The notes under the pieces: generated by a model
Database searches by the model: none
Seen by the model: the letters and a program-made list of their open reading frames with translations, nothing else
What the model was told of the DNA's origin: nothing
Program-made: the position numbers and the translations under genes
Origin: Quercus robur
Lineage: Eukaryota > Streptophyta > Magnoliopsida > Fagales > Fagaceae
DNA length: 64,000 nucleotides
Reading direction: 5' to 3'
Assembly: GCF_932294415.1 (NCBI RefSeq)
Contig: NC_065535.1
Span: 89,482,862 to 89,546,861 of the forward strand
In this document: positions 22,020-54,161 of the stretch, in pieces
Layout: the number at the start of each line of letters is the position of its first letter
Numbering within the stretch: position 1 is the first letter of the stretch

Positions 22020-22150
22020 GGCCAAAATGGGCAAATGCCCTTTTTTCGGAAATTAAACATCTTTGTGCCCTCATTCTGAAACTAAATAGGGAAATGCCCC
22101 TCTTTTGTAACTCGATGATACTAAAATCGAGTTATATGAAATACTCGATA
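22020..22150 (+). repeat. Left TIR of the giant MULE
   Basis: About 131 bp, matching the reverse complement of 54,030-54,161 at most positions with single-base differences and one or two short indels. Homology weakens after about 150 bp. Confidence 0.93.
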
Positions 22151-22380
22151 CTTCAATAATCGAGTTATACACAGGTTTTTCCCGCACTGCTGGCATTTTT
22201 TGTTTTGAATCTCTACATAACTCGATTAGTTAAAAATCGAGTTAGTTATACTGTTATAAACCCTGATTTCGTACTGTCTTTGTGTCAGGTGGAGTGTTTC
22301 AATGTAACTCGATTCCTGGAATATCGAGGTATAAAGTATACTTGATATCCGTAAAGTCGAGTTATTCTCTTATAATTTCT
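22112..22380. repeat. AACTCGAT/ATCGAGTT palindrome cluster, left end
   Basis: At least four units of the form (A)ACTCGAT-spacer-ATCGAGTT, spacer about 8-14 bp. The first two are in the TIR and the others run to the first small gene's leader. A partial copy of 22,282-22,461, missing its middle, recurs at 24,479-24,556. Confidence 0.85.
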
Positions 22381-22883
22381 GCACACCTTCTCCCACTCAG
22401 TGTGCCTTGCTCTCTGCTGAACTGAGGACTTTCTGCTGAACTGAGTTGGAACTCCTCCACGGATCAACAGCAGGTTTCTTCAAACTCAATTGAAATTTGT
22501 ATCACCTCAGGTAAAAAATTCACATCACAATTTTAGGGCAATGTTATGTTCATTTGATATTGTACTAAATTTTGATTTTTTAGGTTGAATGAATGTGAAG
22601 TAAGTACATTGGTGTGATTTTGGTTATTTGTTGTAGTAAACGTTGGTAAGAAGAGAATGAAATAATTTCTTTACTATAGCAACATTTTGTATTGCACATA
22701 ATCATCATTGGTCAGACATTTACAACAACATTTAGTGTTGAAGACAATGTGTAGACATTACCAACAATGTCTATTGTTTATGAATGTCTTTGTTGTATAC
22801 CATTCTATGCAGGATTACATTATTTAGCAACAGTTGATACACACTGTTAACTTGATCATTTGGTGTTATTGTATTCAGTGTCA

Positions 22884-23333
22884 ATGTCTGGTTCTGGCAA
22901 CCCACAACTGTATAGGCCTCATGATGTGTTCACTGCTATGGGTCGTTGTTGGGTATTGGAAGATGAGTTCAGCTATCCAATCAATCCGAATTTGCGAAAT
23001 AGTGCTTACGTTCACAATACCATGAGACAGGAGTGGGCTTGGTTATTTCGTGAACAACAAATGTTTTATGATGAGTTGGTTGGTTTTAAGTTGCCAGTGC
23101 CTCTGCGACTCGCATCAGAAATGCCCAGAGACAGCATCGACGAACTTCGTAAAGCATTGAACCGCATAAGAGAAGAAAATAATCGAATGAAGATACGTCT
23201 TAATCGATATCGGACCCAAGTTGAGATTCGAGAGTCAGTGCAGGAAGGGTGGTACGAGCATGCACAGTTCATGCAATCACTTCTTGCTGATCCCATTTAT
23301 CAGTCAGACGTGGAGATGTCAGATGAAGAGTAA
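22884..23333 (+). CDS. Small coiled-coil protein S1 of the giant MULE
   Basis: 149 aa from the ATG at 22,884 (MSGSGNPQLY). An upstream in-frame ATG at 22,860 would add eight residues; I chose 22,884. The function is not recognised. The C-terminal half is a charged predicted coiled coil. Its landmarks are a Trp-rich segment (W51, W53), PVPLR near 71-75, PR at 81-82, ENN at 98-100 and RLNRY at 105-109. The tail is acidic (DVEMSDEE). The PR-to-ENN spacing is identical in S2 (23,626-24,006), and S3 (27,053-27,667) shares the block, so the three form one family. A possible 5' UTR intron begins after CACCTCAG near 22,510. It is the first gene inside the left TIR and reads inward. The frame is intact, so probably real. 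Confidence 0.72.
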   Translation: MSGSGNPQLYRPHDVFTAMGRCWVLEDEFSYPINPNLRNSAYVHNTMRQEWAWLFREQQMFYDELVGFKLPVPLRLASEMPRDSIDELRKALNRIREENNRMKIRLNRYRTQVEIRESVQEGWYEHAQFMQSLLADPIYQSDVEMSDEE

Positions 23334-23625
23334 TCGTGTTGTGTCGTGGTGTAATTAGATTTTGTTGGAGAACTATTTTGCTTAACTATGTGTTATATGT
23401 ATGGTTGCATTTGTACTATGTAAACCTTATTATTGATTATGAGAAGCATGCACGTTATTCGTAATGTAGATTATTCTCACATAAGTCATAAAAGTCAAAT
23501 ATTCTCACACATGATGTTTTTCAATAAGCACGTACGACATAACACAGAAAACATAAAATAACTTACACTAACATTATTAACTTAACCATAGACATAACAC
23601 ACACACACACACACCACAGTGGCAT

Positions 23626-24006
23626 TCATTCTGATAGGTAGTCCTCGTAGTTGAGGACATTGTTACGTTCTGCCGGAGTGAGTTGCCTGTTTGTTGCAAC
23701 GGCTTGCTCCTCCGCCAATTGTAGCATATGATACCTGGACCTACGAAGTATCATAAGATTGTTTTCTTTTTTTATTTTCGTCACTGCACGCTCATATTGG
23801 TGCATGTTTTGTCGTGGCAGTGTGAGCGAGCTACGCTCGACAAGAGGCGCTCCGATTTGCAGGAGATCATTGTGCAGAGCGTTGGACTCGTTCACGCGAA
23901 AGTCCCACTCCTGTTGCAATCCGGCATAGTATTCCCTCTCGTCAGAATCTCTTTGCGTTCTATAGTTATTTGGAAAACGAGGTAGCATCCAATTACGCAT
24001 TGACAT
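23626..24006 (-). CDS. Small coiled-coil protein S2 of the giant MULE
   Basis: 126 aa from the ATG at 24,006 (MSMRNWMLPRF). It carries the family block: EW at 33-34, P54 and ER at 57-58, LPR at 63-65, ENN at 81-83 and RY at 91-92. PR-to-ENN and ENN-to-RY spacings match S1 exactly. The mid-region is predicted coiled coil (KIKKENNLMILRRSRY), and the end is acidic (NYEDYLSE). It lies tail-to-tail with S1, 292 bp apart. A palindrome-bearing copy of the left-end promoter-like sequence lies about 0.5 kb upstream at 24,479-24,556. No known function is recognised. The frame is clean but short, so an expression test would matter. Confidence 0.65.
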   Translation of the reverse strand: MSMRNWMLPRFPNNYRTQRDSDEREYYAGLQQEWDFRVNESNALHNDLLQIGAPLVERSSLTLPRQNMHQYERAVTKIKKENNLMILRRSRYHMLQLAEEQAVATNRQLTPAERNNVLNYEDYLSE

Positions 24007-24414
24007 TGGAAAATGTGACTTTAGATCGGTATGTGTAGAAGTTTTGCAAGGGTAGATGTATGTAAATGGGACTTCGGTATGTGTAGATGTTTTGCAAGGG
24101 TAGATGTAAATGGGACTTTATATAGGGGTTTTGCAAGGGCAAGTATTCAGGTGGATGTGAGTATAAGTATTCACGTGAATAAAGATGATATGAGTTGACA
24201 GTATATTGTTCAGTGGCGTCTGTTGGTGCATGTGATTCGTTGAGGTAGCTGTCGAGTTACACTATAGCTTGTGCTACAGTAGCGGGCTGGTGATGTGTAC
24301 TGCAAAAGAGGTTGCGTATTTATTCACGTGAAGACTATTCAACATTGATGTGCTTCATCTGACATGATTTGACGAGACAATGTTGAGCTGTGTTAAATGT
24401 ATCATAAACTTCTC

Positions 24415-26200
24415 AGGGATGCTATAGGTACATCCTTTAAAAATGCTGCATTGCAAAAGGATGCATAGCTGTGTCAGGTGTCAGGTGGAGTGTTTCAATG
24501 TTACTCGATTCCTGGAATATCGAGTTGGAACTGAGTTGGAACTCCTCCACGGATGCGTGTAGGTGATATGACTGGATAGGGTTCAATAGTGCAAAGCTAT
24601 TGAGCAGCACTACGAACATCAATGTAGCACTAGGACCAATAACACTCGAAATTGATGCACAAAATTTTCTGCGTTGCTATGTGTATTGACGTGAGTGTGG
24701 ATGGGTACTTCTGGTCAGGGTTCAACAATACTGAGCTATCCACCGTAGCTACAGTCATTGCTCCCTATGGTGGAATTTGGCAAGTGTGATTGAAGAAAGC
24801 TAATAACAACATTAGGTTTTGTAATGGTTGGCAGGATTTCGCTGAATACCATTCTATCTGTTATGGTTATTTTTTAGTCTTCAGATATGAAGGAAATTCA
24901 AGCTTCCATATTGTTATATTTGATAAGACTGCCATTGAGATTCAATATCCACGTAGGAAGAATTGTAAATTGGAAGATCATCAGGTAAAAATATCAAAAA
25001 CTTAGATGAAGATCATACAAACATTTCTTCCTTAATGTACAAACCCATAAAACATGAAGTCAGAGAAAAGTTTGTTCTTAAAAAATTACAGATTATGTCC
25101 AGAGGAAGAAAGAGAGAGAGCAATCCAAGCAGCCAAAAAATTGAAGCCTAAAAATCCTTCTTTCATGGGTATCTCGTGGCCACATAATATGGTGAGCCTT
25201 TATACATAATGTGATTATGATGTTCTCTTAAATATGGCTTGGAAACATATATGGGAAGCAAGTATATTATTGGGAAGCAATTTGTCACACATCAATGTCT
25301 TGTGCTATTACCCTCCATCAAAACCTATTAAGCAATGAGATTCGGGGAAGGCTGGGTTGCATTTTCGAAAGACAATAATTTAGAAAAAGGAGATGTCACT
25401 GCCAATGAGGTGATCGAAAGGACTCCTGTTGTGATTAGTGTCTCAATATTTCACTTGGTTGACCATCAGAGTTTGGACAAGGATAACCTATTTAAAATTT
25501 AAACTAGTGATGTTTATGCTTATATTTAATTAGGGACTTTGATCAGTACTATGGTTTATTTCTCTGACCAGTTTGGTATGTCTTGTTCAAAACTATTCAG
25601 AATTCCTGTGCTTCATCTGACATGACTTGTTGAGACAGTACTGAGCTGTGTTCAATGTATCATAAACTTTTCAGCCATGCTCTGCATCCTTGAAAACGGT
25701 GCATTGCAAAAGAAGGCATATCTGTGTATTGACTGGACAGGGTTGAACAGTGCGAAGCTGTTAAGCAGCACATGTAGCACTACGAACAACATCTGTGTAC
25801 CAATGTTGGACAGCTCACACCCAAAATTGATGCATAGCCAATTCAGGGATGCTCTGCCTCTTCGAAAACGGTGCATTGCAAAGGGTTGCACATATGTGTA
25901 TTCACGTGAGTGGGGATGGGTACGTGTGGTCAGGGTTCAATAGTTTCGAGATGTTGAGTATCACATGCAGAACTACATCAATCAAGTGTAGCAATGATGG
26001 ACAGCTTACCCCCAAAAATTTGCTTACACTTTTGAAGGGTCCTCTGCATCCTTGAAAATAGTGCATTGCAAAATGTTGCATATCTGTTTATTCACGTGAG
26101 CATGGATGATATGACTGGACAGGGTTCATTACCGTCGAGTTGTTGAGCAGCACATGCAGAACTGCGAACATGACTTCGCCGAACAGTGCCGAGCTGTGTT
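24415..26200. repeat. Degenerate repeats of about 180 bp (CATTGCAAA...CACGTGAG...GGTTCA)
   Basis: Imperfect units recur near 24,440, 25,690, 25,865 and 26,055. Each has a GTGCATTGCAAA-type start, TATTCACGTGAG-type text (an ACGTG core), then GGACAGGGTTCA or a relative, then GTTGAGCAGCACATG. Further TATTCACGTGA copies lie near 24,165, 24,319 and 27,910. The units surround and partly interrupt a B3 pseudogene. Confidence 0.75.
24748..25470 (+). pseudogene. B3-domain (REM-type) gene fragment
   Basis: Plus-strand text reads GGIWQV, a stop, then KKANNNIRFCNGWQDFAEYH, FLVFRYEGNSSFHIVIFD and EIQYP. This is the second half of a B3 DNA-binding domain (…W..F…G..LVF.Y.G.S.F.V.IFD). It is followed after an intron-like gap by ERAIQAAKKLKPKNPSF (25,117-25,170), a REM-family linker. 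Then comes GEGWVAFSKDNNLEKGDV (about 25,343-25,400), part of a second B3 domain. Stops interrupt it and the N-terminal half of domain 1 is absent here; a matching piece lies inverted at 26,190-26,335. It is related to, but distinct from, the intact B3 gene at 34,337-36,191. Confidence 0.78.
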
Positions 26201-26335
26201 AGCCTTTTCCAACCTCACTTGCCAAATGCTAGTATTACGAGCAGTGAGTGTAGCAACAGTGGCTTGAGTTTTATCCCCCTGTTTCCCTACAAACTTTTCA
26301 GGGAGTCTTTGCAGGTAGAAAATGTAGTTACATTT
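26190..26335 (-). pseudogene. Inverted N-terminal B3 fragment
   Basis: Minus-strand text gives LQRLPEKFVGKQGDKTQATV, TLTARNTSIWQVRLEKANT. This is the first half of a B3 domain and overlaps the point (IWQV.L.KAN) where the plus-strand fragment at 24,748 begins. It suggests one gene cut and partly inverted, or two copies in opposite orientation. No intact frame continues. Confidence 0.72.
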
Positions 26336-27052: not shown

Positions 27053-27667
27053 TTAACAACAACGTCTAATGTTCGTAGGTAGAAATTTTTGGAAATCATC
27101 ATTGCTTGAATCTGAGAAGTCTGAAATATCTGTTTCATCATCTAACGCTGTAATTTCATTAATAGACTTCATGGCTCGCTCTTGCGCCTTCCCCTTTAGA
27201 TGCTTCCTAGCTTTTTGGATTGCGTGAAAACGGTCTAGTCGCCTTTGCATTTGATTGTTCTCTTGTTCAAGACGAGCAACTATGTTGGCAGGTTCATCTC
27301 TAGGTAACTCGGCAGAGCGTGCCTTAGGAACTCGTAACCCGTGCCATCGACAATACACCTCTAACTCACACCTCTTCTCGTATAGGGTTGACCATGGTGG
27401 TTCTGCTATAGTGAACTCTATTGCGGTGGTATCTGTACTTAGTTTTGTAGGTTTGCCGACCATGATGTGTCCGACGCTTCCAAGACTCTCATACGTGTAT
27501 ATTGGCATATTAACGAAATCTCTCTTCTTTCCAACCCATTTTCCTCCATAGTGGTCTGTGTATGTATGTAGTTGTTGATCTGTTGGAACTTGTGATGATG
27601 CATTTGTTGAAGTAGGTCCAAACTTGTTTCGCATTGTATGATTTGATGTTGAGGCATTGCGACTCAT
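27053..27667 (-). CDS. Small coiled-coil protein S3 of the giant MULE
   Basis: 204 aa from the ATG at 27,667 (MSRNASTSNHTMRNK). The N-terminal 90 residues are Ser/Thr/Asn-rich and have no S1/S2 counterpart. The family block then appears: PW at 91-92, RVPKAR at 112-117, LPRD at 121-124, ENNQM at 136-140 and RLDRF at 143-147. ENN-to-R spacing matches S1 and S2, while the PR-to-ENN gap is three residues shorter. The C-terminus is basic then strongly acidic (DDETDISDFSDSS). Function is unknown. The shared PR/ENN block suggests a dimerising coiled coil, which is inference. Confidence 0.7.
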   Translation of the reverse strand: MSRNASTSNHTMRNKFGPTSTNASSQVPTDQQLHTYTDHYGGKWVGKKRDFVNMPIYTYESLGSVGHIMVGKPTKLSTDTTAIEFTIAEPPWSTLYEKRCELEVYCRWHGLRVPKARSAELPRDEPANIVARLEQENNQMQRRLDRFHAIQKARKHLKGKAQERAMKSINEITALDDETDISDFSDSSNDDFQKFLPTNIRRCC

Positions 27668-29648
27668 AGCTTAATCAATCTACGAAGTTAGCGGGGTAGA
27701 AAGTTAACATTATATCACTGGTGCATTTATAACCTCATTTCACGGTCCAGGCATTACAATTTCACTTATTAGGGCCTGTCATGTCAAACCCTTCAGGAAA
27801 AACACTATATGAACAAGATTTTAAATGTTCCTAATGTCACATCAAAGGTGGGCAGTAGTTGCAACAGTAGATGTAAATGAGACATTTGTGCATCCAATTT
27901 CACAATTCTGTATTCACGTGAGTGTGGGTGTGAAACAGTGTCGAATTGGGTATCCACATCGTGTAGAGCACCGAACATGACTTGACTAAGCAGCAGCGTC
28001 TGTTGGCACATGTGCTGCGATTGAAGGAGTTTGATATGACTACAGTTGGTGCTACAGAAGCAGGCTGGTGACGTGTGTTTAGAGTTGGAACTTGGTCACC
28101 TTCAAACTTCGCTATATTAATTGTGTTTTTTCTTTCACCAGCAAGTTCGCAATATTAATTTATTAATTATGTTTGGTCTTTCACAAAATAAATTATGAAG
28201 ATCACAGTGTTTTCTGTGATTTGGTCATTTTGAATGTCTGTAAACATGATGGTGTGTAAATATGACGGTGTTCATTATCTTTGGTCATTAAACATTTACA
28301 GGTTAAAAGCATCACTTTGGTCTCAGAACCATCACTCTTACAAATTACGTAGCGCCATAGGTCATGTACAAGTGTACTTTCTCTTGTAATCGTAGCCAAT
28401 TGATGTGAGACTGCATTTGAGGGAATACCTACTTACTCGACTATTCGATCAAACATCGTGGTCAAAGACTTGTCGGTTTGAAGCGAGGCCCAATTTGGTC
28501 TGAATACCACATCTGTTATACCGTAGATGTTGGTGGTGGCTTGAGCTCCTGGTTATATTTGTTTAATTGTGGACTTTACCTTTACAAAATCTTAAACATC
28601 ATTAGTCATTGTCGTTGGTCATTTTCAAGGATGGTAGTCAAAACGCTCTTCCCATAATTCGTGACTGTTGGTTAGAAGAGATTGCATATAGGTAAAACCA
28701 TGTTCAACCCTGAAACTAAGCTCTCAAACAAACGCGTGCCATAATAATTTACAGGTTGAAAGCACCACTTTGCTCTTAGAACTTTGATGTTAGTGGCTTG
28801 AGGTCACTGTTATATCTGTTTAATCGTGGTTGGTCCTTCACAACATACTTAAACTTCACGATGTTTATTATCTTCAGCTCACTGTTATCTAATATACATG
28901 GGAAGAGCAAACCACTTCAGGTTTGGATTTCTCATATTTGATTAAAAAAAATCCGTTAGACCTAATGCTAGAGTGAATGAGGTCATGCCAAGTGTCGCTT
29001 TTATATTTTTCGACGAGTCTGCACTGCAAGGTTTCATCAATAAATTTTGTAATGAAAATATGATGCATGAGGAATAGTCCAGGCGAGGATCAAATTCAGA
29101 ATAATATAATTGCTGATTTAAGATCGACAAAAATATCCAATTAGTGGAAAATACATGTAAGCTCAGCAAAACCTCCAATAAAAATAGTTGCCTGAAGTCA
29201 AGATATAGCTTCAGCCATTGTTCCAAGGAAAATCTCCTAGGTGGTTCATCGTTAATATCAAAACCTGTAAACGAATTGTGCTTTCACAAAACCTTCCATT
29301 TGTATTAATAATTACTATAATCTAAAAACACGTGAGCGTCGTACAGAATTATGAAATAAATGTTATTTACACACAGACTTGGATCTACTTGATATTATAT
29401 AGAATCACATAATAACATAAAAAATTCTTAGACCATTACATCCATTTCAATAATACTAATGATAGTAACGATGGGCATGAAACTAACCATCATATTAATA
29501 TATCAAATTACTTTCAACGGATACCATGTTCTTCAAATTGCCACTAAAATAAAAAAATATAGAACTGTCATACAATTCTCCAAATATGTTATAGCAACCA
29601 CGAACTGAAAATCGTCCCCCCCTTGGGTACAATACCCAATGGGAATCA
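27668..29648. other. MULE interior with decayed internal repeats, no clear gene
   Basis: Diverged repeats near 28,500-28,610 and 28,790-28,880 share GGCTTGAG...TATATCTGTTTAAT. The minus strand near 28,960-29,230 has a coding-looking block with no recognised domain; it may be another captured fragment. No intact gene is supported. Confidence 0.5.
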
Positions 29649-30782
29649 TCAAGAGTCAGATGGTGTAGAAGGTGGAACAAGACGTCTATAGTGAGCTAAG
29701 TCCGCTCGCATAGCTCCAACCTCGGCAAGAAGACCATGTAGAAGCTGACCATGGGCTGCCTGAGTCGTCATAATGGTCTCCATCATAGCATGAAGAGAGG
29801 GAGGAAGAGGGCATGTATGCGCTGCATCAACAGTGTCAACATCTATCTCATCATCACCATCCTCGGCAACAACAGATGTGGGATCCCCATGCATGTCCTC
29901 ATCTTGAACATCTCCAGTAGTAGACCGTACTCGTGGTCTGTTGGATGGACCAACACTGAGGTCGACAACCTTCTTTTGGGCAGTTCGCTGTTTCAGAAAT
30001 TTGGCTCCTATAGGGGCTTGGATGTGAACCAACTCGTGGGAAGGAAAGTTCTTTAATCCTAAATATTTGAGGACCCTATGGATGAGAACTGGGAAAAACA
30101 AAGCATGCCTCTTATACTTGCTCCTACGCACCTTGACAATGGTTTCGATGAAAAGGGAAGGAAAACAAATGGAACTATTGGTGACAAGGGCGTAAAGCAA
30201 GATACACCTGTCTACAGGGATTGCATGGATATGAGAGATAGGGAAAATATTGTGACAAGCTATCCTAAAGAAGATATAATTAAGCTCAGTCAACTCACTT
30301 GAGCTAATACTTCGGCCAGAATCCCGAATGTTTGATCGTCCACAAAGAACATCCATAACATCATCAATACGAGGAGACATAGAGTTTGGATAAGTAGGTG
30401 TACAAATTATAGGTACATCAAGGGCTTTAGATACGTGCTCCCTAGTTATTGTAAACGGTACACCACGTATGGACGATGCCACCTTGTGACCACCAAGATC
30501 CTCATGCACCGATAGATTCGAATAGAATTCTCTAATCAAGTCAGCTGGAGGGGGTTGTATGTTTGTACATAGGGACAGCCAATGCCTAGACTGTAGATTC
30601 TCACGAACAAAAGGATGCAGCTCCTGTAAATTGATTTGCCTTTCTCCCCAAATACGCCTACGCTTAATCAAGGTTTCAAAGGTTTGCTCATTTTCTGGCG
30701 TGAGGAACCTTAATTGATCAAACACCACTTCAGGTTCGGATGCAGCTTTGCATTTTCCCCTCTTAGTCCTCTTCGGACCCAT
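29649..30782 (-). CDS. 377-aa plant transposon-type protein of unknown function
   Basis: An uninterrupted single-exon frame starting MGPKRTKRGKCKAAS. The N-terminus is basic, possibly nuclear. Residues about 25-230 have FLTPENEQTFETLIKRR, LHPFVRENLQSRHW and LIREFYSNL, then VRG/RGVPFTIT-type text and a helical segment. This order resembles the 'putative plant transposon protein' domain common in repeat-encoded plant proteins, recognised by pattern only. A basic/acidic linker (DVQDEDMHGD..DDEIDVDT) follows. Then comes a C-terminal helix, MMETIMTTQAAHGQLLHGLL, that may be a coiled coil. A palindrome cluster (31,569-32,175) lies upstream on its promoter side. Function is unknown; it could be an accessory protein of the MULE or captured from another element. 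Confidence 0.7.
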   Translation of the reverse strand: MGPKRTKRGKCKAASEPEVVFDQLRFLTPENEQTFETLIKRRRIWGERQINLQELHPFVRENLQSRHWLSLCTNIQPPPADLIREFYSNLSVHEDLGGHKVASSIRGVPFTITREHVSKALDVPIICTPTYPNSMSPRIDDVMDVLCGRSNIRDSGRSISSSELTELNYIFFRIACHNIFPISHIHAIPVDRCILLYALVTNSSICFPSLFIETIVKVRRSKYKRHALFFPVLIHRVLKYLGLKNFPSHELVHIQAPIGAKFLKQRTAQKKVVDLSVGPSNRPRVRSTTGDVQDEDMHGDPTSVVAEDGDDEIDVDTVDAAHTCPLPPSLHAMMETIMTTQAAHGQLLHGLLAEVGAMRADLAHYRRLVPPSTPSDS

Positions 30783-31568
30783 AACTAATCGATGGTCAGT
30801 AGTGCAAACACGATCAGCTCACACAAAAACAGAACCAAAATGAAGTTTGAAGCAGAGAACAAAAATTGAAGAGTAACCAGCTACCATGTGTAGAAAATCA
30901 TGCACACAATATACTGTCTAGAGCAGTTTACAACAACACAATGAAAACCAAATATTCTTATTCACGGGTTGTTTAGTTGGTGCAATAATTGTAATGCATT
31001 TTGGTCCGAGTCAATAATTTGAAGTTAGAGACCTAGAGTATATAACAGAAGTCTTATCATATAGGAAACATACAAGTGGATTTAGGAACTGACATATATC
31101 ATACCATCGTAGCTACATGTAGTAAGTTTCACCAGCTTCTACAAAAAACAGAAAATAAATTGCACAATGTACAGTTCAGACATACAACCAGCATATATCT
31201 ATACCACACACATATGGAGCCACTGGCAAGTTCATTTTGTGGAAGGAAGACAACCTATGACATAGGCAACCTTACTAACAACAATGCATTTGACTAGGCA
31301 AACACCCAATTTCATCACAATCTTCATAGACATAGACATAGAAGTGTGAAGCATCAAAATGCAAAATTTGAGAATAATGCACCAACAATGTGTAATTTCA
31401 AAGACAGCAACCGTTAAAAGAGTCTTACTATGTAAAATCCTCGACGAATTTGCGCGGGAAATTGTGGGTTCTAGCCGGATGAAGCGAGAGCAATCGAAGA
31501 TGTAATTTTGGACAGCTGCAAGTTCTGCAGAACTGGGGAAGAGTTAATAAAAATGGGTAATAGATTGT

Positions 31569-32175
31569 AATGTCCATATAACTCGATATTACTATAATCG
31601 AGTTAAATGCAATCAAATTTTCAGCACAAGGGCTTGCACATAAACCGACTGTCCGTAAATCGAGTTATGTGTAGCACAAATAACAAGAATCCAGTTAATG
31701 GTGGAACGGCTTTCTCATAACTCGATGTTACAGAAAACGAGTTAATTTCAAATAACTCGATTATAAAGAACTCGAGTTATTTTTATGGGCCCCCAGGTAT
31801 TTGGACTGGTCCAGATGCGGTCCAAGACGAATCGAAGTTTAAAGGTAGGCCTGCGACAATACTCGATTCTACTTGAATCGAGTTCTGTGCAGTGGACACT
31901 CACAAGAAATCAAATTCCTCGAGATTTGGAAAATCGAGTTACATTGTACACATGCACCCACCCAGCCCATATATTTGGACTGGTCCAGATGCAGTCCAAG
32001 AGGAATCCAACTGTATATGGCTACCTCGCACAAAACCGAACAAATAACATAGTACTCTGTTATTTGCAGTAGAATATCTCAAGAATGCAATTTCTGTGTG
32101 TAATGGCTTGCATATAAATGGCGACATCATAAAGCGAGTTATTTGCAGAGTTACTCAATTTTGTAGAACTTGAGT
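31569..32175. repeat. Palindrome cluster upstream of the 377-aa gene
   Basis: About seven units or half-units of AACTCGAT-spacer-ATCGAGTT lie here, for example near 31,580, 31,735, 31,755, 31,862 and 31,920, some degenerate. Two copies of a second hairpin, TTGGACTG-N9-CAGTCCAA (near 31,800 with one mismatch, and 31,977), are interspersed. Confidence 0.85.
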
Positions 32176-33020: not shown

Positions 33021-33795
33021 TTAACTTGAAACAATTACATCCAAATCTAAAATCGAAACAATATGCGATGAGACATCTTCTATCCATACTTGAAAATCTG
33101 ATATGCGTAATGCATTTTTCGGCAGACTATGAGCAACCCTATTGTCGTTTCTCTTAACATGAGAATACAACAATCGTTCAAAACTATTAGCAACCCTTTT
33201 CACATCATCTACCAGTAGACCTATTGGAGATAGGCTACACTCTGTTGACTTCAAACCTTTAATCTGACCGAGAGAATCTCCTTCGAGAGTAGCTCTTTGA
33301 AAACCCAACTCACGCGCAAATGTCACTGCCTTCAGAGCAGCCAGCGCCTCAACCTCATCAGGCTTGTAAGCTTGATGAATTTTTTCTGAACAAGAAGCCA
33401 TCACAACTCCATTATTATCCCGAATTACCACTATTGCCGCCACTTGAAATTGATTTCCCTTGGAATATTTTTTCAAGGCATTAATTGGATTAACTCCAAT
33501 TGTACATGCTAGCTGGCTGGTAGACTCCAAATTGGGTGTAACAATTCTTGCCAATAATAACTCTTCATTATTATTTATATTTGCCAAAAACGTATCCTCC
33601 TGTAATACCTCCACCGAAATAGAAGGTGTATTAATTGAGTTGGACTTATTGCTAATTGGCGTGGACTTTGGCAGCACTAAATCCTCAATAATTGCAGACA
33701 CTGAAGCCCAATCCAGCTGCGTGGCTGAGGGCAGCATTAATGAGGGCGTTACTCCAGGAGTTGTAACTGAAGTAACGTTCCTCCAACTTCATCTA
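33021..33795 (-). pseudogene. L1-type LINE fragment: RNase H-like (RVT_3) domain
   Basis: A minus-strand open frame from 33,737 to 33,021 has VVIRDNNGVVMAS, DEVEALAALKAV, LEGDSLGQI and VKRNDNRVAHSL. These are the D, E, D and H landmarks of the RNase H-like domain at the C-terminus of plant LINE ORF2. A poly-T run on the plus strand at about 32,979-32,997, just past its 3' end, is the poly(A) tail. It is a 5'-truncated LINE copy inserted in the MULE. A target duplication was not found. Confidence 0.85.
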
Positions 33796-36191: not shown

Positions 36192-36289
36192 TGTTCTGGT
36201 TCTCCAAACTTTCGCTGAGAAGAAGTTGAACAGTTGCTGCTTCGTACGTTTGAGCACTAAATAGTGGGTTGGTCATACACATAACCCGA

Positions 36290-37640
36290 CTATTTAGAAA
36301 TCGAGTTATGTGTACTGGGACTAAAAGGAGTCCATGCTGTGCGCAGTGTATCTCAGAGGAATCCATGTTGTGTGTGGTGGTTTGGAAGTCCATTTGAAGT
36401 AACTCGATATCCTGAACATCAGGTTAAAGTAGAATTACTCGATATCCAAGAAATCGAGTTATATGGGACTAACTCGCTTATAAAGAAATCGAGTTAAGTT
36501 ACATGGGAAATTGGGAATAACTCGGCAACAATTGTAGACAACGGTCTTCAACGTATCTCGATTCTAAATATATCGAGTTCCTCTCAACAGAACTCGGTAA
36601 CCACTAAATCGAGTTACGTTGACTGGGCTTCCTGAGCCAGCCCAGATAGTTGGACTGGTCCAGAGGCAGTCCAAGAGGAATCTAAGTGGAGACAACGGCC
36701 TTCAACGTATCTCGATTCTATATAGATCGAGTTACTCTCCATTTGAAGTAACTCGATATCCTGAACATCAGGTTAAAGTAGAATTACTCGATAGCCAAGA
36801 AATCGAGTTATATGGGACTAACTCGCTTATAAAGAAATCGAGTTAAGTTACATGGGAAATTGGGAATAACTCGGCAACAATTGTAGACAACGGTCTTCAA
36901 CGTATCTCGATTCTAAATATATCGAGTTCCTCTCAACAGAACTCGGTAACCACTAAATCGAGTTACGTTGACTGGGCTTCCTGAGCCAGCCCAGATAGTT
37001 GGACTGGTCCAGAGGCAGTCCAAGAGGAATCTAAGTGGAGACAACGGCCTTCAACGTATCTCGATGCTATATAGATCGAGTTACTCTCAACATAACTCGG
37101 TTACGACGAAATCGAGTTAAGTTGACTGGGCTTCCTGAGCCAGCCCAGATAGTTGGACTGGTCCAGAGGCAGTCCAAGAGGAATCTAAGTGGAGACAACG
37201 GTCTTCAACGTATCTCGATTCTATATATATCGAGTTACTCTCGACATAACTCGGTAAGGATGAAATCGAGTTAAGTTCACTGGGCTTCCAGCCCAGATAT
37301 TTGGACTGGTGCCAGAGGCAGTCCAAGAGGAATCTAAGTGGAGACAACGGTCTTCAACGTATCTCGATTCTATATATATCGAGTTACTCTCAACATAACT
37401 CGGTAAAGATGAAATCGAGTTAAGTTGACTGGGCTTCCTACACCAGCCCAGATATTTGGACTGGTCCAGATACAGTCTAAGAGGAATCTCCAACGTAACT
37501 CGGTACCCTATAAATCGAGGTATGTTGAAGGTAACTCGGATATCTAGAAATCGAGTAACTCAGATACTTGACAATTGAGAGTGGATACAGTCGTAGGGGG
37601 TTGAAAATGGACTGCAACGTAACTCGTTATCTAGAAAATC
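36290..37640. repeat. Palindrome-bearing tandem array upstream of the B3 gene
   Basis: Twenty or more ATCGAGTT/AACTCGAT half-sites lie here. The array has units of about 150 bp (starts near 36,992, 37,145, 37,293, 37,448), each with two palindromes, an ACTGGGCTTCC...CCAGCCCAGATA segment and the hairpin TTGGACTG/CAGTCCAA. A higher-order direct duplication of about 350 bp (36,391-36,740 and 36,741-37,090) is nearly identical; I saw few differences. This points to recent amplification. Confidence 0.92.
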
Positions 37641-42339: not shown

Positions 42340-42505
42340 GACTCGATATTAAGTACATCGATTTTATATAATACTCGATACCACATAAATCGAGTTACTG
42401 TTGACAAGACGTATTGAAATGACGGCATTTCAGAAACTCGGTTAATGAGAAGTCGAGTTACATGTAACTCCGCATGCTATAACTCGATTTATATGGAATC
42501 GAGTT
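42340..42505. repeat. Palindrome cluster between transposase and HBD gene
   Basis: Four units of ACTCGAT/ATCGAGTT type lie at about 42,340-42,370, 42,374-42,395, 42,435-42,460 and 42,480-42,504. They sit about 105 bp upstream of the 42,608 gene and 1.3 kb upstream of the transposase, in the divergent promoter region. Confidence 0.88.
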
Positions 42506-42607
42506 GTGGCCCCATTTCCACTACAAAAGCTCACTTCACACGTTAGAAGGTGCAGCCATGTTATTCTAGTGCAAAGAGTTCCCACCATTGCGTTTGTGTA
42601 GAGCAGG

Positions 42608-43045
42608 ATGGGACGAACCTATGTTGTGTTTAACGGTCGTGTTCCAGGCATATACGACAGTTGGCTAGATGCGAGTAGACAAGTTCATAAATTCCCAAAC
42701 GCCAATCACAAATCATATAAAGATCGAAGGGAAGCCGAAGCTGCATACATGGAGTATTTGCATGGTAATGGTATGGGCGTGCATGGTGGTGTGTCTACGT
42801 CGTGGGAAACTCCAAACATATCAACCTCAACTCCACCTAGCACTTCTCAAAGCGAAGGAACCAACTATGGCAGTGGAGACATTAGGCACACTTTGTTAAG
42901 GTATCAGTTGGAAGTTGCCATTGAGGAGCGTGACCACGCAAGGAGGATCGCAACGTTGAGTGCAAACATGTTGAATGAAGTGGTGGCTCACGTTGTGGGG
43001 GATGATGAAGTTGATGCACCCACGAGACAACGTACGGATGCATGA
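42608..43045 (+). CDS. 145-aa protein with an RNase H1 N-terminal (viroplasmin-type) domain
   Basis: The start MGRTYVVFNGRVPGIYDSW fits the small RNA-DNA hybrid-binding fold found at the N-terminus of RNase H1 and in caulimovirus viroplasmin. Conserved features are YVVFNGRVPGIYDSW at about 5-19, a Val/Phe core (QVHKFPN), a K-S-Y and an EAEAAY helix (about 42-47). No RNase H catalytic domain follows. Instead there is a Ser/Thr-rich linker, then a helix LLRYQLEVAIEERDHARR and a C-terminal DDEVDAPT tail. The frame is intact and the domain is complete for this fold of about 45 residues. It might bind nucleic acid during transposition, which is inference. It is divergent from the transposase with shared palindromes between. 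Confidence 0.82.
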   Translation: MGRTYVVFNGRVPGIYDSWLDASRQVHKFPNANHKSYKDRREAEAAYMEYLHGNGMGVHGGVSTSWETPNISTSTPPSTSQSEGTNYGSGDIRHTLLRYQLEVAIEERDHARRIATLSANMLNEVVAHVVGDDEVDAPTRQRTDA

Positions 43046-46319: not shown

Positions 46320-49300
46320 TCAAATGCACAGTACAAGTAGCTCAAGAAGATGGGAAGTGTAGACGAAGTACATACCATCACCGGTCCCGCAATCGGGAGC
46401 ATGCGCACGCGGGCGTCGCGATCTCCGCAAAGCCTCCACCGGCTCAATGTCCTCAGCCGGTATCTGCTCAATCTGTACAGCCTCTCCGTGGGCGGTTTGA
46501 GATGGAGCTGACATGGTGGGGTCCACTTGCACTAGAGGTGGGGTGGGCATGCCTGGTGTGGGGACAAATATGCATCCACCATCATGGGCAGATCCACTGA
46601 AAACTGGGGGCGACATACGAGGAGGGCCCTCAAAGTCCGTGCTAGCACCATGGGATGTAGTGTGGGCTGGAACAGTGCCCTGATGATCGACGCTATGGGA
46701 TGGCCCAGCACCATCGCCAGGCGTGCATCGCGGTGTCCTGCCGTCGTCATCAGACAGTACCCAATCAGTGCCAAGCCATGCCTCTTCTACACCCTCCTCA
46801 TTCCCTTCCTCGTAGATGGGAGCCGACTCGGTCGTACGGCTGCGACCAGCTTGACCACCTCCACGATGTCCACCCCCACGAGACCCACCACGTTGCCCGC
46901 CACGAACTGGGGCCTGTCTATCAATGTCAACTGCTTCTGCAAGCGCATTCGCCAATTTAAGTCGGCCTAGCTCCTCCACAAGCTCTAGTGTAAATGTAAG
47001 GTCAGTGTGCATGTCAGAACCTTCATCGCACCTCGGTATAGACCTAATCATCGTCCGAACCTACAAAACAAGGGCGTCATAAAAGCAAGAACGCAAGTAT
47101 GATGCAAAACTTGGATAAATCTGTTCCAAAATCAAAAGAAAAAGTAGCAAACATAGCTAATGAAATCCTTATATTACTTATAATTATGAAGCATCTTTAA
47201 AAAGACAGTGTATAAAAATAGGGGTTGGCCCCCCCTGTGCAAGAATTTATAGTTCCAACCCAACACTCAAGAGGTTGTATGTTTCCTGTTATGTTTATCG
47301 CTACGCAATCTAAACATTGAGATAATACTTCTAAAAAACACGTATAGTTGGTTGTACATAAGTTCAATCTTAGCATAAGTGAAAATATCAGAATTTCACT
47401 TCTGTATCTAGGCTTCACGAGATTTACAACTCCATTAATATCACATTGCAATCAGGACACATATTTTGAAGTTATTATTTCCTAACGTACACGCCCAAAT
47501 CAAATGAATTGAAAATATCAAACGCAAGCTTCAAGTTTCAATTAAGGGAAGTACCAAAAACTTAGAACATATATCATACTTGAATCTAGTATAAATGCAC
47601 ATCTCCTTGCTGCATACTTGCAAGATTTTAAATGACCTTTAAGCTGTTGGGAATTGCATTCTACCAACAGTTTAGTAAGGGACTTCCCAATCCTAGAGGT
47701 AATATCTATCAAGGAATATGTAATACATTAATCAGTCCTGGAGGAAAGGCTATCTAAACTATCATGAAATGCGAATTTATCACTACTACACAGAGTTGCA
47801 CCGTCCATTTTAAAGTACAAGCCAACCAAAAACAAAAAAAAATTAAAAAAAATTAAAATAAAATACAATAAAACCCAACCCAACCTACCCTTTTTAAAAG
47901 TTGAATGTAATTATATGAACAAAGGTGTGGTCATCATTAGTCATTGCCCATTAACCATTCCTCATGCAAACAAATTGGATCAAGACAAATTCAGTTTGTT
48001 ATGAACAACTTAAATCATGCAGTATTTTGACTTTAAAACATAATGACATGTCATGCAGTATTTTTTCACTTTAAAACAACATGACAGAGAAACTTATAGA
48101 GATGTAACAACAATAACTATTGTGGACTTCAAAATATGCATGATAAATCTGCTGAGGATATTTAATCCAACAATGGTTTCATCCATAAAATAGGAATTGT
48201 TGCCTCACCATGAGTTCCCAATACGCAGACTCTGGTGTTATGTACCGCCTTGTGTGGCGATTGTACCACATCATGTACTCAACGAGATACGTATCATCAT
48301 CGTCTAGGAGATCGGACCCGCGAACTACATTCACTCGGTTGGCCCATTGCCGAATAAAGGGATCATGTTCTACCTCCCAGTTCTTCTCCCATTTACCCTG
48401 AAGGGATATCTTGTGAAGGGTAGTCGACGTATCCACGACACTTGGAACTGGTTGCTTCATCCCAAACTGACGGAGGACTCGCTCAGGATGATGCCACTCC
48501 ACTATCCAAAAGAATATCAACGGCACCTCGGCCCTCCAAATATGCTGCCCAGCAGTGCAATACGCAGGTAGGGAGCCTAGCGTATGTGTGTACGGCTCCC
48601 ATACAATCTGCATAAGTAGATTATGTTTGTGATAGTGAGACATCATACTAATTTAACATTATGTAGGTGATATGTAATATGCAAAGCATGGAATTTCTAG
48701 CTTCTAGTCGTACACAAAATCTTCAGGGATTATTGGGCAGAAACTAAAAGAACAACAAAATTGACCTGCAAAAAATATTAAAAGATCTAGGTTGTTCATG
48801 TCCACCATTTTCAGCCCCATGTTCATATGCTGGACAGGGTTCAAAGCTAACTGACACCATCAAATACTAGGGTTTTCAATCTGAACCAAACTTAGAGGAG
48901 GGTACTACAGCAGTCTTATGGCTGTAAGATGAATCCAAGTTGATGATTTCGCAAAATCTTTTTATCGTAATAGAAATATTGTGCTACATTAATTGCATTA
49001 GTCATTAACAATGTTTCAATGAATGAGAACAAAATGACTATTATAAGGTCTACTGAAGACATTGCATTTCAAGTACCACTTTATATTGCAAGAAATGGAA
49101 GCTATGTAAATTATTACATGGTATAATCCTCATCAAATACTGTTATTATATTTCTATGTAAATATATATTTCTTATAAATTTTAGTGTTGGAAATTACGT
49201 AAGCCTTTTAGTTATCTCAAACTAATCATGTCAATGTCTAAAATTACATTCCTCTTGAAGAATATGGTGATCAGCATATTTTGCACGCTTCTAAAATTAT

Positions 49301-52300
49301 ATGAATAAAGTACTCGTTAATAATCCATAGCTTTTAATAATTTTAGGACTATTAAGGCAGCTAAAGTGGGGACAACTTAAGGAGTTGCATGCTGCAATTA
49401 AATTGTGCTCTCCAACTTTGGTGCAAGGAGCACGAACTAACTTTTCATTTAGGTCAACAACAAGAGGTAATGTGTCAAGCGTCTTTATGTTTTCTCATAT
49501 ATCACTGATTAACAATTATTTGTTTCTTTAAACTTAGGCCATTGTTTTCCAAGAAGACAATCGAGGCTGTGCATATTCAAAATATACCACTTGAATACGT
49601 AAATCGAAGTCAAACAGTATTCTACTAGACTGTAAAAATATAACCTTCAATTCAGCAAAGGTAATTTATAACGTACAATGTAACAATGTTTTTTGCATCA
49701 CAATAACAATTTTTGTAATCCTGGATACCCCTATGTTAGAAGAAGAAATACTAAATTGTCTACTTATTAGGCAGAGCAATAACTATGGTTTTAAGCTCAT
49801 AACATTTTATTAATTAATTACAAGTGATTCACATTGACTACCTATGAAAACACCATCAACTAGAACATCCCAAACAGATGTTTAGATAACATAAAAGTTT
49901 ATATTAACCTTAGATGGTCACTTAATACTAAATATTGCTATGTTCTGTCACAGGGGTAGTGAAATGCATAAACTCCAAACATTAGTAAGTTTTTGAAGGC
50001 AAAGCAACAATTGAGACTATCTTCGGTGCTCACTCTGGCATCCTAAACAACCCCAAATCTCACAAAGGGTTTAACCTATACCCTGGACTCTCGAGTTCCT
50101 ACTGGGAGGGCACTAATGGCTTTGTATTTTGGAAATTTCACAGTGTGGACCCAAGCAATGACAACCATCCAGCATTGGACAAGGACAAGCTATGGCAATG
50201 GCTTAGCCTATGGTCACTCTATGACATTCAAGTCAGAGTAACTCCATCCTTTAGTTTGCTTAATTTCAAATTTCAATGAAAGCCAGAGAAGTGATCATGT
50301 GTTTTACGGGCCAATGATCAATAATGTCATCATTCCCTCTGTTTCTGTACTTAGGCCAAAAATGCAAACTTGGGTTATATTTTTGCTCTCATGTCATGAT
50401 TACACAATAATTAGATAAAATTTTCGTAGTTTAACATTTGCAGCTTTCCCAACGTTCTAAATTTAAAGAATTTTATCATTTTATGAGATTTAACAGCCAA
50501 CTATATTACAACAGTGAAGAGCAGCTCTAACTCAGCAAATTTAATTCAACGAAAATCTGGAATATAATTGTGGTAATATCTAAGTCAACCACCAAAACTA
50601 TAGCGAATCCAGAAGGTGTGAAATATTAATAAGCTTCAACAGTTCTAAAAAAAATTTCTATTTTAAAGCTTTAATATTGAAGTATAACAACTATCAAAGA
50701 TTCAAACTCTCTCTAAAAGAATTATGAGCACAAGTCTGGGCTAACCTGTTGAGCAAGACTCCAAAACGCATGTAAAGAAGCAGAAAGTGCAAAAACAACG
50801 AAGAAGACAGTGAAGCAGAATTCACACAAGGATTAGGGAAAGAAAAAAATTTGGACCATTTCTCGATTTATGCGTGTCATCCTTGCGCAGGGGCCATGCG
50901 TTTTGAAAATATCATTTGTATTCTAATATGCCTTGATTCCCTTGTTCTGAAAAGACCCATATTTGTCAAGTTTATAGTTAGAAATTTGTTGTTTAGAATT
51001 TAATTGACCATGCTGGTTCTGCGTTTACAATCATTCGCCTTATATAAAGTCTTAAGAAATATTGTTTTGAAATTTTTTAGTTCATTTTCATAGCAGGCTA
51101 AAAGTTCTATTTTCTCATGTTAAGTAGGTTGAAACGGTGTATAATAACATAATCAGAAAATGAACACAAACTTTTGATTCAGTTAGTAGCTGGAAAGAAT
51201 TTAAAGATGTCATCGTCAGTTTTGAAGATGCATCATTAAAATCAAATGAATTACTTGAGCACACAAATACAACCAAAGACAAATCTGATCATCTTTGGTA
51301 TACTATTAGGTAAATTCATTTCTCATTGAATTATAACCAATTACATAATCCAATATGTGCGTCTTCTCTTCATTGCATCAGCTTAATGACATTTGTAACA
51401 ATTGGTGGAGTTTTTGTTTTTTGGTTGCAACACAAGTTTGAACTCACTGCCTTGCACTAAACGAAGACTTCATGCTCAATGTTTTGCGCATGTTGCACAT
51501 GCTTCAAACATCTTGGAAAAGGGACAATTTATTCTGTGTTTTTTTTTTTTTTCCGTGTAAATCACAAACGTTTCCGTACATAATGAAGAATATAGCCAAA
51601 TTCTACTTTATATATATATGACTAAATTTATATATAACCCATTGATTTAACCCAACTTAACCTGAGTCATGTTAGTTGGGTTGCATTGGAAAAAACCCTT
51701 CAATCCAACCCAATTTGGAAAAAACCCTTTGATTTAACATTCAAGAATTTTTTACTTTTGTTTTACTTTATGTAAGGACGAGCAAGTATTCATGCAGGTG
51801 CTACAAATGGAAGTTCTAATGTGAAGTACTTCACGATGGACATTCCAATTGAGTTAAATGATGGGATGGAAATCCAAGTACCAAACAAAATGATTGGATG
51901 GTATTATGAAATCAACTCATTCCTACAACAATCCAAGAATTCAAAATAATATAAAATTGAGGGAAACGAAAATAAAAGCATGTGCGGTGCATTTGAGGAA
52001 AACGTGCTCGGCCCGTAGTTATAAGAATTGAGGGAAACGTGGTCATAAGAATTCAAACTAAATTAACCGAATACCTGCTCGGCCCGTACTGTAGCCAGTG
52101 ACGCCCGGTACGCAGCAAGGACGTGTGTGGCATGCTCTGCGGTGCATTTTGGCCCGCTCCACCTACCAAACATGAGATGTCGACAAATGCTCATTACTGA
52201 ACCTTACATTTAACAAACTTTGCTTTTATATTTCACATCCATATACTAAGCATTGATAAGTTTCTTTCGTTTGTTAGTTTGGCATACTTTTAATTATATG

Positions 52301-53289
52301 AAAGAGACAAATAACGAGAACTCAATGAACGTACCTAATGGCAAGGGGCCCTGAGTGCACTGGCGGTAGAGGCGGCCTCACAACAGGGCATAATTGTGGG
52401 AACCTTGAATAGGCCCATAGCTGCACCAACAAGAGTGCTCCTCCAATCTGCATCGCATCCTTCTTCGATGCACCACAAAGTTGCCTATACAGCCAGGCCA
52501 ATGTTGCACTACCCCAGCTATACCGTCTCGCATTGCTGACTGGGTTGAGCAACTGCAGAGGCAGCAGTGAGACCCGGTCCGCAGACCTGTCCATGAACAA
52601 GAGGGCCCCCATCCGTACAAGTAGGTGGTAGCGGGCATATTGCTGCACGACTTCGTCAGCAGCGTCCACAACTAAGGGAGCGGCAAACTGTGCATCAAGC
52701 CAGGTGTATCTTATCCTCGCCCCAGCAAGGGTAGACTTGTTTGAGTTTGGTATCGGGGGTGGAGGTTTATGGCCCAACAACTGTTCGCACAGCTCACTCC
52801 ATTTGTAGTCTGTCTTCCCAGTGACAGGCAACCCATCCACCGGAAGCCCCAGCATCACCTCCATATCTTGCAAGGTGATACCCATTTCTCCATGGGGTAA
52901 GTGGAACGTGTGCGTCTCCGGACGCCACCGCTCAACCAACGCCGTGATCAAGGCGTGGTCGACCTCCATATCAGGAACCTTGAATAAACCAGTCAACCCT
53001 GCTGCATCTATGTGTTGCATGATACGTGGATCTAACCCACCCTGTGGCAATACACATTTACGGCGTCGAACCTTTATCATGCCAGGCGCCTCCTGCACAC
53101 GGACGAGTATTCTGTTAGGAGATTAAACACGAGGTAATTATAAAACAAACATGTATTAATAATACTACTACATACCTCGTCAGCGGCGCACCTCCAAAGT
53201 GGACTTGACCGATGATTCGGCTGCTGGGCCAACTGGGTATCCACATCGGGTCCAGGCCGCACTCTATCTAGTGCCTGCATATCTGACAT
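46320..53289 (-). CDS. Plant mobile domain (PMD, MAIN-like/'aminotransferase-like') gene of the MULE
   Basis: Five exons join in phase with GT/AG borders: 53,289-53,176; 53,092-52,335; 52,162-52,075; 48,607-48,209; 47,060-46,376. If exon 5 is not spliced further it runs to a stop at 46,320, giving about 700 aa. The start is [16 protein letters not shown] marks include [58 protein letters not shown] and [20 protein letters not shown]. They continue with [27 protein letters not shown] and [13 protein letters not shown]. The C-terminus is Gly/Arg-rich ([12 protein letters not shown]) and ends with CGTGD. PMD proteins include Arabidopsis MAIN/MAIL1 and many MULE-carried copies. It is the gene nearest the right TIR, reading inward. 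Intron 3 is 3.5 kb and contains captured beta-galactosidase pieces in antisense. The last exon border is uncertain. Confidence 0.85.
49347..51309 (+). pseudogene. Captured beta-galactosidase (GH35) fragment, antisense in PMD intron 3
   Basis: Three plus-strand exon remnants lie in gene order. 49,347-49,466 reads [20 protein letters not shown], matching LPKWGHLKELHxAIKLC of plant beta-galactosidases. 49,538-49,660 reads [10 protein letters not shown], then a shifted FQN..LE block and the DCKN/K region with stops. 51,167-51,309 reads [20 protein letters not shown], then [20 protein letters not shown], matching LLEQ.NTTxDxSDYLWY. Exon borders (AG|, |GT) persist. Between the last two is an extra coding-like block (about 49,995-50,275, [19 protein letters not shown]) not assigned. 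It is non-functional. Confidence 0.85.
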
Positions 53290-53936
53290 GGCAGCAAATA
53301 CATTGTTAGCAATTTTCTAACAAGTAAACCACATTTAATATAAAATAAAAGCATAGATTCAGTAAGACATTATATTTTGAGCACAAGATTTTCAACATCA
53401 CTTCTTAAATAAATAAGAACTTGCCATAAAAAAAATTATTTCAGAACTATTTAAATCACTTCTTAAAGCTTCGGATAATTATTAATTAACTATTTCTGAA
53501 AATATAAGTTATAACACCACTCGATTTGCCAAAACCCCTCATCAAAACCCCAAGCACATTTAAACTCATTAATGAGAAAATCATCATTGCAGCATATAAA
53601 AGACAACAAAATTCTCATCTTCATTAGTAAATTTACTACTTCCTTAAGTTTCAACAAAATAATCAAAATCCCACACAAAACGCAACCTAACATTAACCAA
53701 CGTCAGAAAATATTTCAGAGGGAGAGGACCGTACCTGTAATCAGCGGCGGCGGGAACCAACGACGACTGATGGAGACTCGAGGAAGAGTGGGGAAGCCTG
53801 ATCGCAGAGCGAGAGAGACAGAGTGTGGAGAGAGAGTGATGGCAGAGAGCGAGGGAAAGAGAGTGTACAGAGAGAGTGAGTGACTGAATAGCGTTGTGAG
53901 ACGTTAGGGTCCTATTGATTCAAACCGCTGAACATA

Positions 53937-54080
53937 ACTCGATTTCTAGTTTCCCGAGTTATGGCCGTCTACACAAACATTTTTTTATTCGGGAAAATTC
54001 GAAAGGTCAGACTAACTCGACTATAATAATATCGAGTTATTCATTAAAACTCGATTTCTATATTGTCGAGTTACAAAAGA
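53937..54080. repeat. Palindrome cluster at the right end
   Basis: Three ACTCGA(T)-spacer-(A)TCGAGTT units (about 53,937-53,963, 54,014-54,039, 54,049-54,073) lie about 0.65 kb upstream of the PMD start. The last two form part of the right TIR. Confidence 0.88.
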
Positions 54081-54161
54081 GGGGCAATTCCCTATTTAGT
54101 TTCAGAAAGAGGGCAAACGAATGTTTAATTTCGAGAAAAAGGGTATTTGCCCATTTTCTCC
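54030..54161 (-). repeat. Right TIR of the giant MULE
   Basis: 132 bp, the inverted counterpart of 22,020-22,150. Immediately followed by the second TCAAGGAAT copy. Confidence 0.93.

Follow-up and report, generated by a model that had tools for sequence, protein, structure and literature searches.

A giant, complete-looking Mutator-like element of Quercus robur, very probably spread as an intact unit of about 32 kb

We analyzed a 64,000-nt window of the Quercus robur genome (C2:89,482,862-89,546,861; C numbers denote contigs, of which the 785.7-Mb genome has 42), in which a unit of about 32 kb with the features of a Mutator-like element (MULE) occupies positions 22,020 to 54,161. Between its terminal inverted repeats (TIRs) lie a MURA-type transposase gene, a PMD gene, a B3 gene and further open reading frames (ORFs), whose coordinates are collected in Table 1. 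A first-pass annotation of the same sequence had proposed inverted termini of about 130 bp, and the alignment of the two ends gave TIRs of approximately 145 bp (22,024-22,167 against the reverse complement of 54,013-54,157). The match without gaps covers 120 nt at 84% identity, its ends are 31.9 kb apart, and the outermost four bases of the termini (22,020-22,023 and 54,158-54,161) are partly unlike, GGCC and GGAG. The perfect 9-bp target-site duplication (TSD) described by that annotation was found as TCAAGGAAT, identical on both sides of the unit. The window contains no N, and no inner TIR pair with its own TSD appeared in the repeat listing, which was not a scan aimed at shorter inner TIRs.

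The insertion was also said to interrupt a FAR1-like sequence that rejoins across the unit, and this held only in part. A FAR1 domain (PF03101, E 8.8e-7) ends at the left junction. For the rejoining, the FAR1-like locus C2:26,603,869-26,606,101 matches the left flank (77%) and a 48-bp piece spanning the junction (94%), the two matches lying in order on one strand and 1.93 kb apart; on the other side of the balance, the right flank had no Pfam match in 5 of 6 frames tested and the joined flanks had no reading frame of at least 40 aa across the junction. A run of 24 A residues (54,251-54,274) lies beside the FAR1-like flank, 81-104 bp to the right of the right TSD copy. FAR1-like relatives (75-78%) make up 11 of the 40 matches listed in the flank search of the genome, and each of these matches breaks off where the TSD begins. 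A retro-processed FAR1-like copy may have been the target of the insertion.

As the first-pass annotation had stated, the transposase frame is uninterrupted. It is open from stop to stop over 881 codons, with the first ATG at 41,020, and its product matched the Pfam families MULE (PF10551, E 2.1e-19), DBD_Tnp_Mut (E 1.3e-10) and SWIM (E 1.4e-7), all above the cut-off. We take D477 (in DAT), D539 (in SD) and E644 (in NLSE) to be its probable catalytic residues. It is plausible that the element might still move.

To place the unit in the genome, we used queries of 151 bp from each end (best 40 of 1,993 candidates scored for the 5' end, best 40 of 1,357 for the 3' end), and the copy numbers given here are therefore lower bounds. 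The 5' end was found at no fewer than 40 places with 95-100% identity; for all but one of the 40 scored, an inverted 3' terminus lies 4.9-42.8 kb away, which gives 39 terminus pairs. The pair length is 31.3-32.4 kb in 21 of the 39 pairs, that of the window among them, and reaches at least 26 kb in 33. The TSD was tested in the 25 pairs with both ends inside the fetched loci: 24 copies possess their own duplication of 9-10 bp (22 perfect and two with one mismatch), compared with none of 600 mismatched end pairings used as a control. The sequences of the duplications differ between the 25 copies read. Their length is 10 bp in 18 of the positive copies and 9 bp in six, so that the 9 bp of the window is the minority form. 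In the genome search with the transposase (best 52 of 1,721 candidates scored), we used 42 of 53 matches, leaving out nine from a sister family described below and two from C38:2.607 Mb. Of the 39 copies, 31 had a match. Its orientation was the same in every one of these, and in 26 it lay between 13.1 and 13.7 kb from the 3' terminus; a full-length, stop-free frame was present in 21 of the 39 copies.

A full second copy on contig C38 is colinear with the window copy from end to end and is flanked by a different TSD. The two copies differ by 25 substitutions over 32,135 aligned bases (99.92% identity outside indels), the indels of the C38 copy including an additional tandem unit of 154 bp and a stretch of AT that is longer. 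Over the terminal 1,651 bases on either side, the window copy shows 2+1, 3+1 and 5+2 differences from its three nearest near-full-length copies, and a second sub-family is separated from it by 1.3-2.1% in the same ends, where the 5' alignment has about 124 gap columns. With plant substitution rates of 2e-9 to 7e-9 per site and year, the divergence between the window and C38 copies corresponds to roughly 56,000-195,000 years. The insertions lie on many contigs, carry their own TSDs in 24 of the 25 testable cases and include a full second copy, and these results show that the 32 kb are transposed in full, as a single element. The single bounded unit proposed in the first-pass annotation was thus recovered, and the scale of the family is greater than had been proposed. 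Overall, we are highly confident that the window contains one copy of a giant, complete-looking MULE of Quercus robur which has spread as an intact unit of about 32 kb.

Table 1. Features of the 32-kb element and of its insertion site (window positions; position 1 is the first base of the window).
Feature	Position	Strand	Basis or remark
FAR1 DNA-binding domain of the target, adjoins insertion	21826..22011	+	Pfam and genome search
Left TSD copy TCAAGGAAT	22011..22019	.	Sequence and family TSD test
5' TIR	22020..22167	+	Alignment, repeat listing, genome search with 151-bp end
6 AACTCGAT/ATCGAGTT sites, two dyads with 9-bp spacer	22109..22313	.	In and just inside 5' TIR, upstream of the 149-aa ORF
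CC1, 149-aa coiled-coil-like protein	22884..23333	+	ORF list, Pfam (no family above cut-off), relatives
CC2, 163-codon ORF, distant CC1 paralogue (29% over 63 aa)	23626..24117	-	ORF list, comparison
Decayed B3-domain fragments	24733..26320 (24,733-24,948; 25,350-25,463; 26,204-26,320)	+; +; -	Below Pfam cut-off where tested
CC3, 205-codon coiled-coil-like ORF	27053..27670	-	92% identical in 42-kb sister element
T32, PF20167 'putative plant transposon protein'	29649..30818	-	Pfam, genome search
7 AACTCGAT/ATCGAGTT sites upstream of T32	31580..31940	.	Motif scan
LINE-type RNase H (RVT_3) passenger	33021..33788	-	Pfam, genome search; mainly one sub-family
B3 gene	34337..36272	-	B3 domains 35,466-35,056 and 34,690-34,337 (Pfam); likely first exon 36,272-36,051 (by eye)
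Tandem units of about 154 bp, many ATCGAGTT sites	36389..37520	.	17 of the 39 ATCGAGTT/AACTCGAT sites of the element
MURA-type transposase, single open frame, 881 codons	38396..41041	-	ORF list, Pfam, genome search
3 sites, including one dyad, in the spacer separating the divergent transposase and HBD genes	42389..42505	.	Motif scan
HBD, ORF with ribonuclease H1 N-terminal domain (PF01693)	42602..43045	+	Pfam
PMD gene, predicted exons	46320..53122	-	53,122-52,322 (PMD 1-211); 48,652-48,179 (PMD 238-347); possibly 47,060-46,320 (by eye)
3' TIR, holds two motif sites	54013..54161	-	Alignment, genome search, motif scan
Right TSD copy	54162..54170	.	Sequence and family TSD test

As presented in Table 1, the element contains several genes besides the transposase. 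On the minus strand, read from right to left, their order is the PMD gene, the transposase, the B3 gene, T32, CC3 and CC2, and the plus strand carries HBD and CC1. In the Pfam scan of 19 interior ORFs, no KDZ, EnSpm or Starship transposase and no tyrosine recombinase was matched, and no VANC homologue turned up in the Pfam scans, none of which was a search aimed at VANC. NCBIfam gave nothing above the cut-off for the four proteins compared with it. In a PDB sequence search (E 0.001), the transposase and HBD had no match and B3 matched only At1g16640, weakly (E 4e-4). The predicted structure of CC1 is helical with a poor mean pLDDT of 55. PF20167, the family of T32, is related to ORF1 of the Athila retroelement (PMC11728184; this and the other papers given by PMC number are cited from excerpts).

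These genes travel with the termini. PMD exon 1 has a match in all 39 copies (39 of 150 matches used), being stop-free in 31 and full length in 28 of those, and T32 has one in 35 of the 39 (39 of 110 matches used, plus nine sister partners), full and stop-free in 29. Among 30 copies compared for each gene, CC1 is without premature stop or frameshift in 25 and the covered part of PMD exon 1 in 26; in the copy C40_17519148, PMD exon 1 lacks one base at the cut end of the locus, which is not counted as a frameshift. The fragment of LINE-type RNase H is found inside 19 of the 39 copies (19 of 151 matches used), nearly all of one sub-family, and has thus moved along with the unit; most likely, it entered one lineage once and was carried along afterwards. 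The fragment proved too young to serve as a neutral reference for the decay of frames, 18 of the 19 copies that lie within terminus pairs being free of stops.

A short motif, AACTCGAT/ATCGAGTT, occurs 39 times in the element and is absent from the other 31.8 kb of the window. Outside the tandem array, which is one unit longer in one of the two full copies, 22 sites remain, approximately 35-fold the dinucleotide expectation; the motif was chosen from the same data as an over-represented word, and this excess is descriptive. Clusters of sites mark both termini, the stretches preceding T32 and the B3 gene, and the interval from HBD to the transposase; none lies a short way upstream of CC3 or CC2, and four pairs are arranged as AACTCGAT-N9-ATCGAGTT dyads. 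Two loci of the sister family carry eight and six sites upstream of T32, in the same relative place, and none inside their transposase frames. The motif sites are probably binding sites of a DNA-binding protein encoded by the element, either the transposase or B3.

The sister family was recognized from nine further transposases at 67-68% identity, four of them stop-free. T32 lies 2.5-3.1 kb downstream on the same strand at all nine, and a PMD exon (70-72%) was seen by eye 16.5-27 kb upstream in eight. Two sister elements were delimited, C6:15,626,640-15,668,647 (42,008 bp) and C3:60,036,022-60,076,491 (40,470 bp), with sharp common borders, TIRs of 245 bp at 95% identity and shared sequence only up to the termini; the two pairs of TSDs read, TGTTAATAGG and CCGCTTTACA, are perfect and 10 bp long. 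A genome search with the sister TIR (best 40 of 521 candidates) gave 19 pairs with lengths from 10.8 to 78.2 kb; six measure 40.2-42.0 kb. One place was left without a partner, and one was an extra end beside a pair. All nine sister transposases fall inside one of these pairs, and a PMD match is present in 17 of the 19 (21 PMD matches used). At the C6 locus, the genes follow one another as PMD, transposase, T32 and CC3, and no B3 match was found there between the transposase and T32 in the part read. About nine further PMD genes at 59-60% identity, with equal open frames of 339 aa, occur at C1:4724280, C3:15773011, C2:71511706, C40:5433225 and other places, and possibly represent a third recently spread element family.

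Comparison of the window element with the sister family revealed constraint on the shared genes. The ratio of non-synonymous to synonymous divergence (dN/dS) was 0.18 for the transposase at a synonymous divergence (dS) of 1.18, 0.19 for the first 149 codons of PMD exon 1 (dS 1.27), 0.38-0.39 for T32 (dS 0.77-0.78), 0.17 for CC1 (dS 0.18), 0.16 for CC2 (dS 0.43) and 0.32 for CC3 (dS 0.12). Within the 32-kb family, the window transposase gave dN/dS of 0.27 and 0.29 against two members of the second sub-family. The coiled-coil end (22798-27670) retains about 80-92% DNA identity in its longest pieces with that of the 42-kb sister element (L074:5876-9500 with L070:1-394). Its dS of 0.12-0.43, compared with 1.2-1.3 for the transposase and PMD, suggests that this end passed between the families later than the divergence of the transposase and PMD; alternative sources of such a spread along one element pair are gene conversion and unequal rates.

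Relatives of several of its genes are found in other Fagaceae. The best transposase relative, at 94%, is from Q. lobata, and Q. suber gene models fuse parts of the transposase with B3 domains, one of them (P0116) joining a transposase, B3 and a T32-like C-terminus in the order of the window element. The Q. suber relative of the B3 gene carries the source name 'vrn1'. Proteins related to CC1 and equal to it in length occur in Q. suber (87%) and Lithocarpus (85%), and a shorter relative occurs in Castanea. These relatives suggest that the genes concerned are probably older than Q. robur.

Taken together, the two families may form a lineage of giant oak MULEs (at least two families, of about 32 and 40-42 kb) that behaves as a small modular mobile genome, with purifying selection on a conserved core of PMD, transposase, PF20167 protein and coiled-coil proteins, a cis-regulatory code of its own made of AACTCGAT/ATCGAGTT dyads at the termini and before genes, and exchange of modules between families; several copies may transpose today. 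We advance this view tentatively, as a real possibility that falls a little short of being probable. Several observations weigh against the main reading, that of a complete-looking 32-kb element spread as an intact unit. The empty site envisaged by the first-pass annotation was not recovered, no intact one being present among the 40 matches listed, the window itself aside. The transposase has no match in eight of the 39 copies (among the best 52 of 1,721 candidates), is full length with stops in five and partial in another five. The copy of 4.9 kb is the sole exception in the TSD test, with two mismatches of nine. In the sister pieces searched, which cover part of the sister element, HBD was not found and B3 only as a fragment of 48 codons, and the sister CC2 holds one stop. 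Selection is not visible among the youngest copies: the window and C6 transposases differ by one synonymous and seven non-synonymous changes (dN/dS 1.9), and the sister C6 and C5 transposases by three and 11 (dN/dS 1.0). Across 30 copies each, pN/pS was 0.49 for CC1 (p 0.03) and 0.57 for PMD exon 1 (p 0.054), a weak signal.

The giant element could have spread recently and now be dead or mobilised only in trans, its current copies being silenced or defective, which we regard as conceivable and, on balance, doubtful. Nine of the 39 terminus pairs are shorter (4.9-28.6 kb), and of the six in which both ends were read, five have a TSD with at most one mismatch; several copies of sub-family B also carry stops in the transposase. 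Copies with a missing, stopped or partial transposase would need help in trans. Against a dead family stand the full stop-free transposase in 21 of the 39 copies and the 0.08% difference from the nearest fetched copy.

It is unlikely that the oak unit is an ordinary MULE, exceptional only because others of similar size sit in the subscription literature or in repeat databases. Grapevine Mutavine-1 (Mudravi1) is, like the oak family, a large multi-copy MULE, with 43 copies carrying a transposase and 12 of them potentially functional ORFs, and it differs from the oak units in having 17.7 kb and TIRs of 70 bp (PMC2528002). No MULE of at least 30 kb was recognised in the literature searched, mostly without subscription papers and without repeat databases; there, the 17.7 kb of Mutavine-1 was the largest size found, which bears out the unusual size noted in the first-pass annotation, and we do not claim the oak element as the largest known. 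In the Pack-MULE set to which a review of giant transposons refers, no element is longer than 7 kb (PMC6431247), and arthropod MULEs measure 1.4-10 kb (PMC13359780).

A composite, in which two unrelated short MULE ends surround nested separate elements and the 32 kb never moved as a unit, is very improbable: the mixed content (the LINE fragment, the B3 fragments and the PF20167 domain related to Athila ORF1) would fit it, but 21 of the 39 pairs share a length of 31.3-32.4 kb, with gene offsets that match where tested, and the separate TSDs where tested and the colinear full copy contradict it. Spread by segmental duplication or assembly error, to which the high identity between copies could point, is likewise very improbable, being contradicted by the 24 of 25 loci with their own TSDs and the colinear second copy, and the two sister copies alike only up to their termini and the window free of N make it still harder to entertain.

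By every feature tested, the unit is a MULE, and what is unusual is its size, its gene content and the count of apparently intact copies. It combines a PF10551 transposase, TIRs, dispersed independent insertions and a 9-bp TSD, which lies in the 8-11 bp class of MULEs (PMC6446971). In its MULE domain, MuDR DNA-binding domain, SWIM domain, long TIRs and TSD of 9-10 bp, it resembles the MUDR and MUDRAVI2 groups (Dupeyron et al. 2019), most members of which also contain a PMD gene, a domain common in several plant MULE groups (PMC6446971). The oak units are likened to these groups by features and not by a tree, and they differ from them in their 32 and 40-42 kb and in their extra ORFs (T32, CC1-CC3, B3 and RNase-H1-N). 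MULE ends around host-like gene pieces (B3) recall Pack-MULEs, which are short and mobilised in trans; the complete transposase frame of the oak unit rules out this identity. VANDAL MULEs possess the VANC anti-silencing protein, accessory genes and clusters of short motifs bound by an element protein, and the oak unit is like them in having accessory genes and short motif clusters, the latter as candidate sites. Algal giant KDZ and EnSpm elements (PMC12477816) and fungal Starships are also large and carry accessory genes and passengers, in other transposase superfamilies and hosts, and the haploid-phase explanation offered for giant transposons (PMC12477816) does not fit a diploid tree. In Q. 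virginiana, Mutator elements have been described in centromeric satellites (PMC13042303).

The movement of the oak element may be pictured as follows. Its own MURA transposase would recognise the termini of about 145 bp, excise the unit and insert it elsewhere, leaving a duplication of 9-10 bp; the 24 TSDs show this outcome, and the domains of the transposase point to the enzyme step. The PMD protein, the PF20167 protein and the coiled-coil proteins, together with B3 and RNase-H1-N proteins in the 32-kb family, would be kept by the element rather than carried as random cargo. The gene order is shared for PMD, transposase, T32 and CC3, and constraint between families extends to these and to CC1 and CC2; the role of the proteins is what we infer. 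By binding the AACTCGAT/ATCGAGTT sites, dense in the termini and before several genes, a protein encoded by the element would tie gene expression to transposition. The PMD protein would probably act on host silencing, as has been speculated for PMDs captured by MULEs (PMC5418596).

Other repeats surround the insertion in the window. Just to its right lies a foldback-like element of about 1.5 kb (54349-55889; inverted arms of 128, 99 and 89 nt), the start region of which matches many places in the genome. A Ty1/copia-type retrotransposon (10739-15862, by eye) has interrupted gag, integrase, reverse transcriptase and RNase H-like frames between direct repeats of 185 bp (10,739-10,923 and 15,678-15,862, 96%), and a frame at 58304-58921 resembles, by eye, the zinc-binding C-terminal part of a LINE reverse transcriptase.

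Overall, these results show that plant DNA transposons of very large size are able to move as single units. MULEs of 32 and 40-42 kb have spread in a diploid, long-lived tree, and 21 of the 39 copies of the 32-kb family keep an open, full-length transposase. A B3-domain gene is part of the window copy and of its close relatives, so that transcription-factor-like genes could be spread by insertion. Three questions become testable in this system: how a MURA-type transposase joins ends lying 32-42 kb apart, what roles the selected accessory genes play, PMD and the Athila ORF1-related PF20167 protein among them, and how such giant units influence oak genomes.

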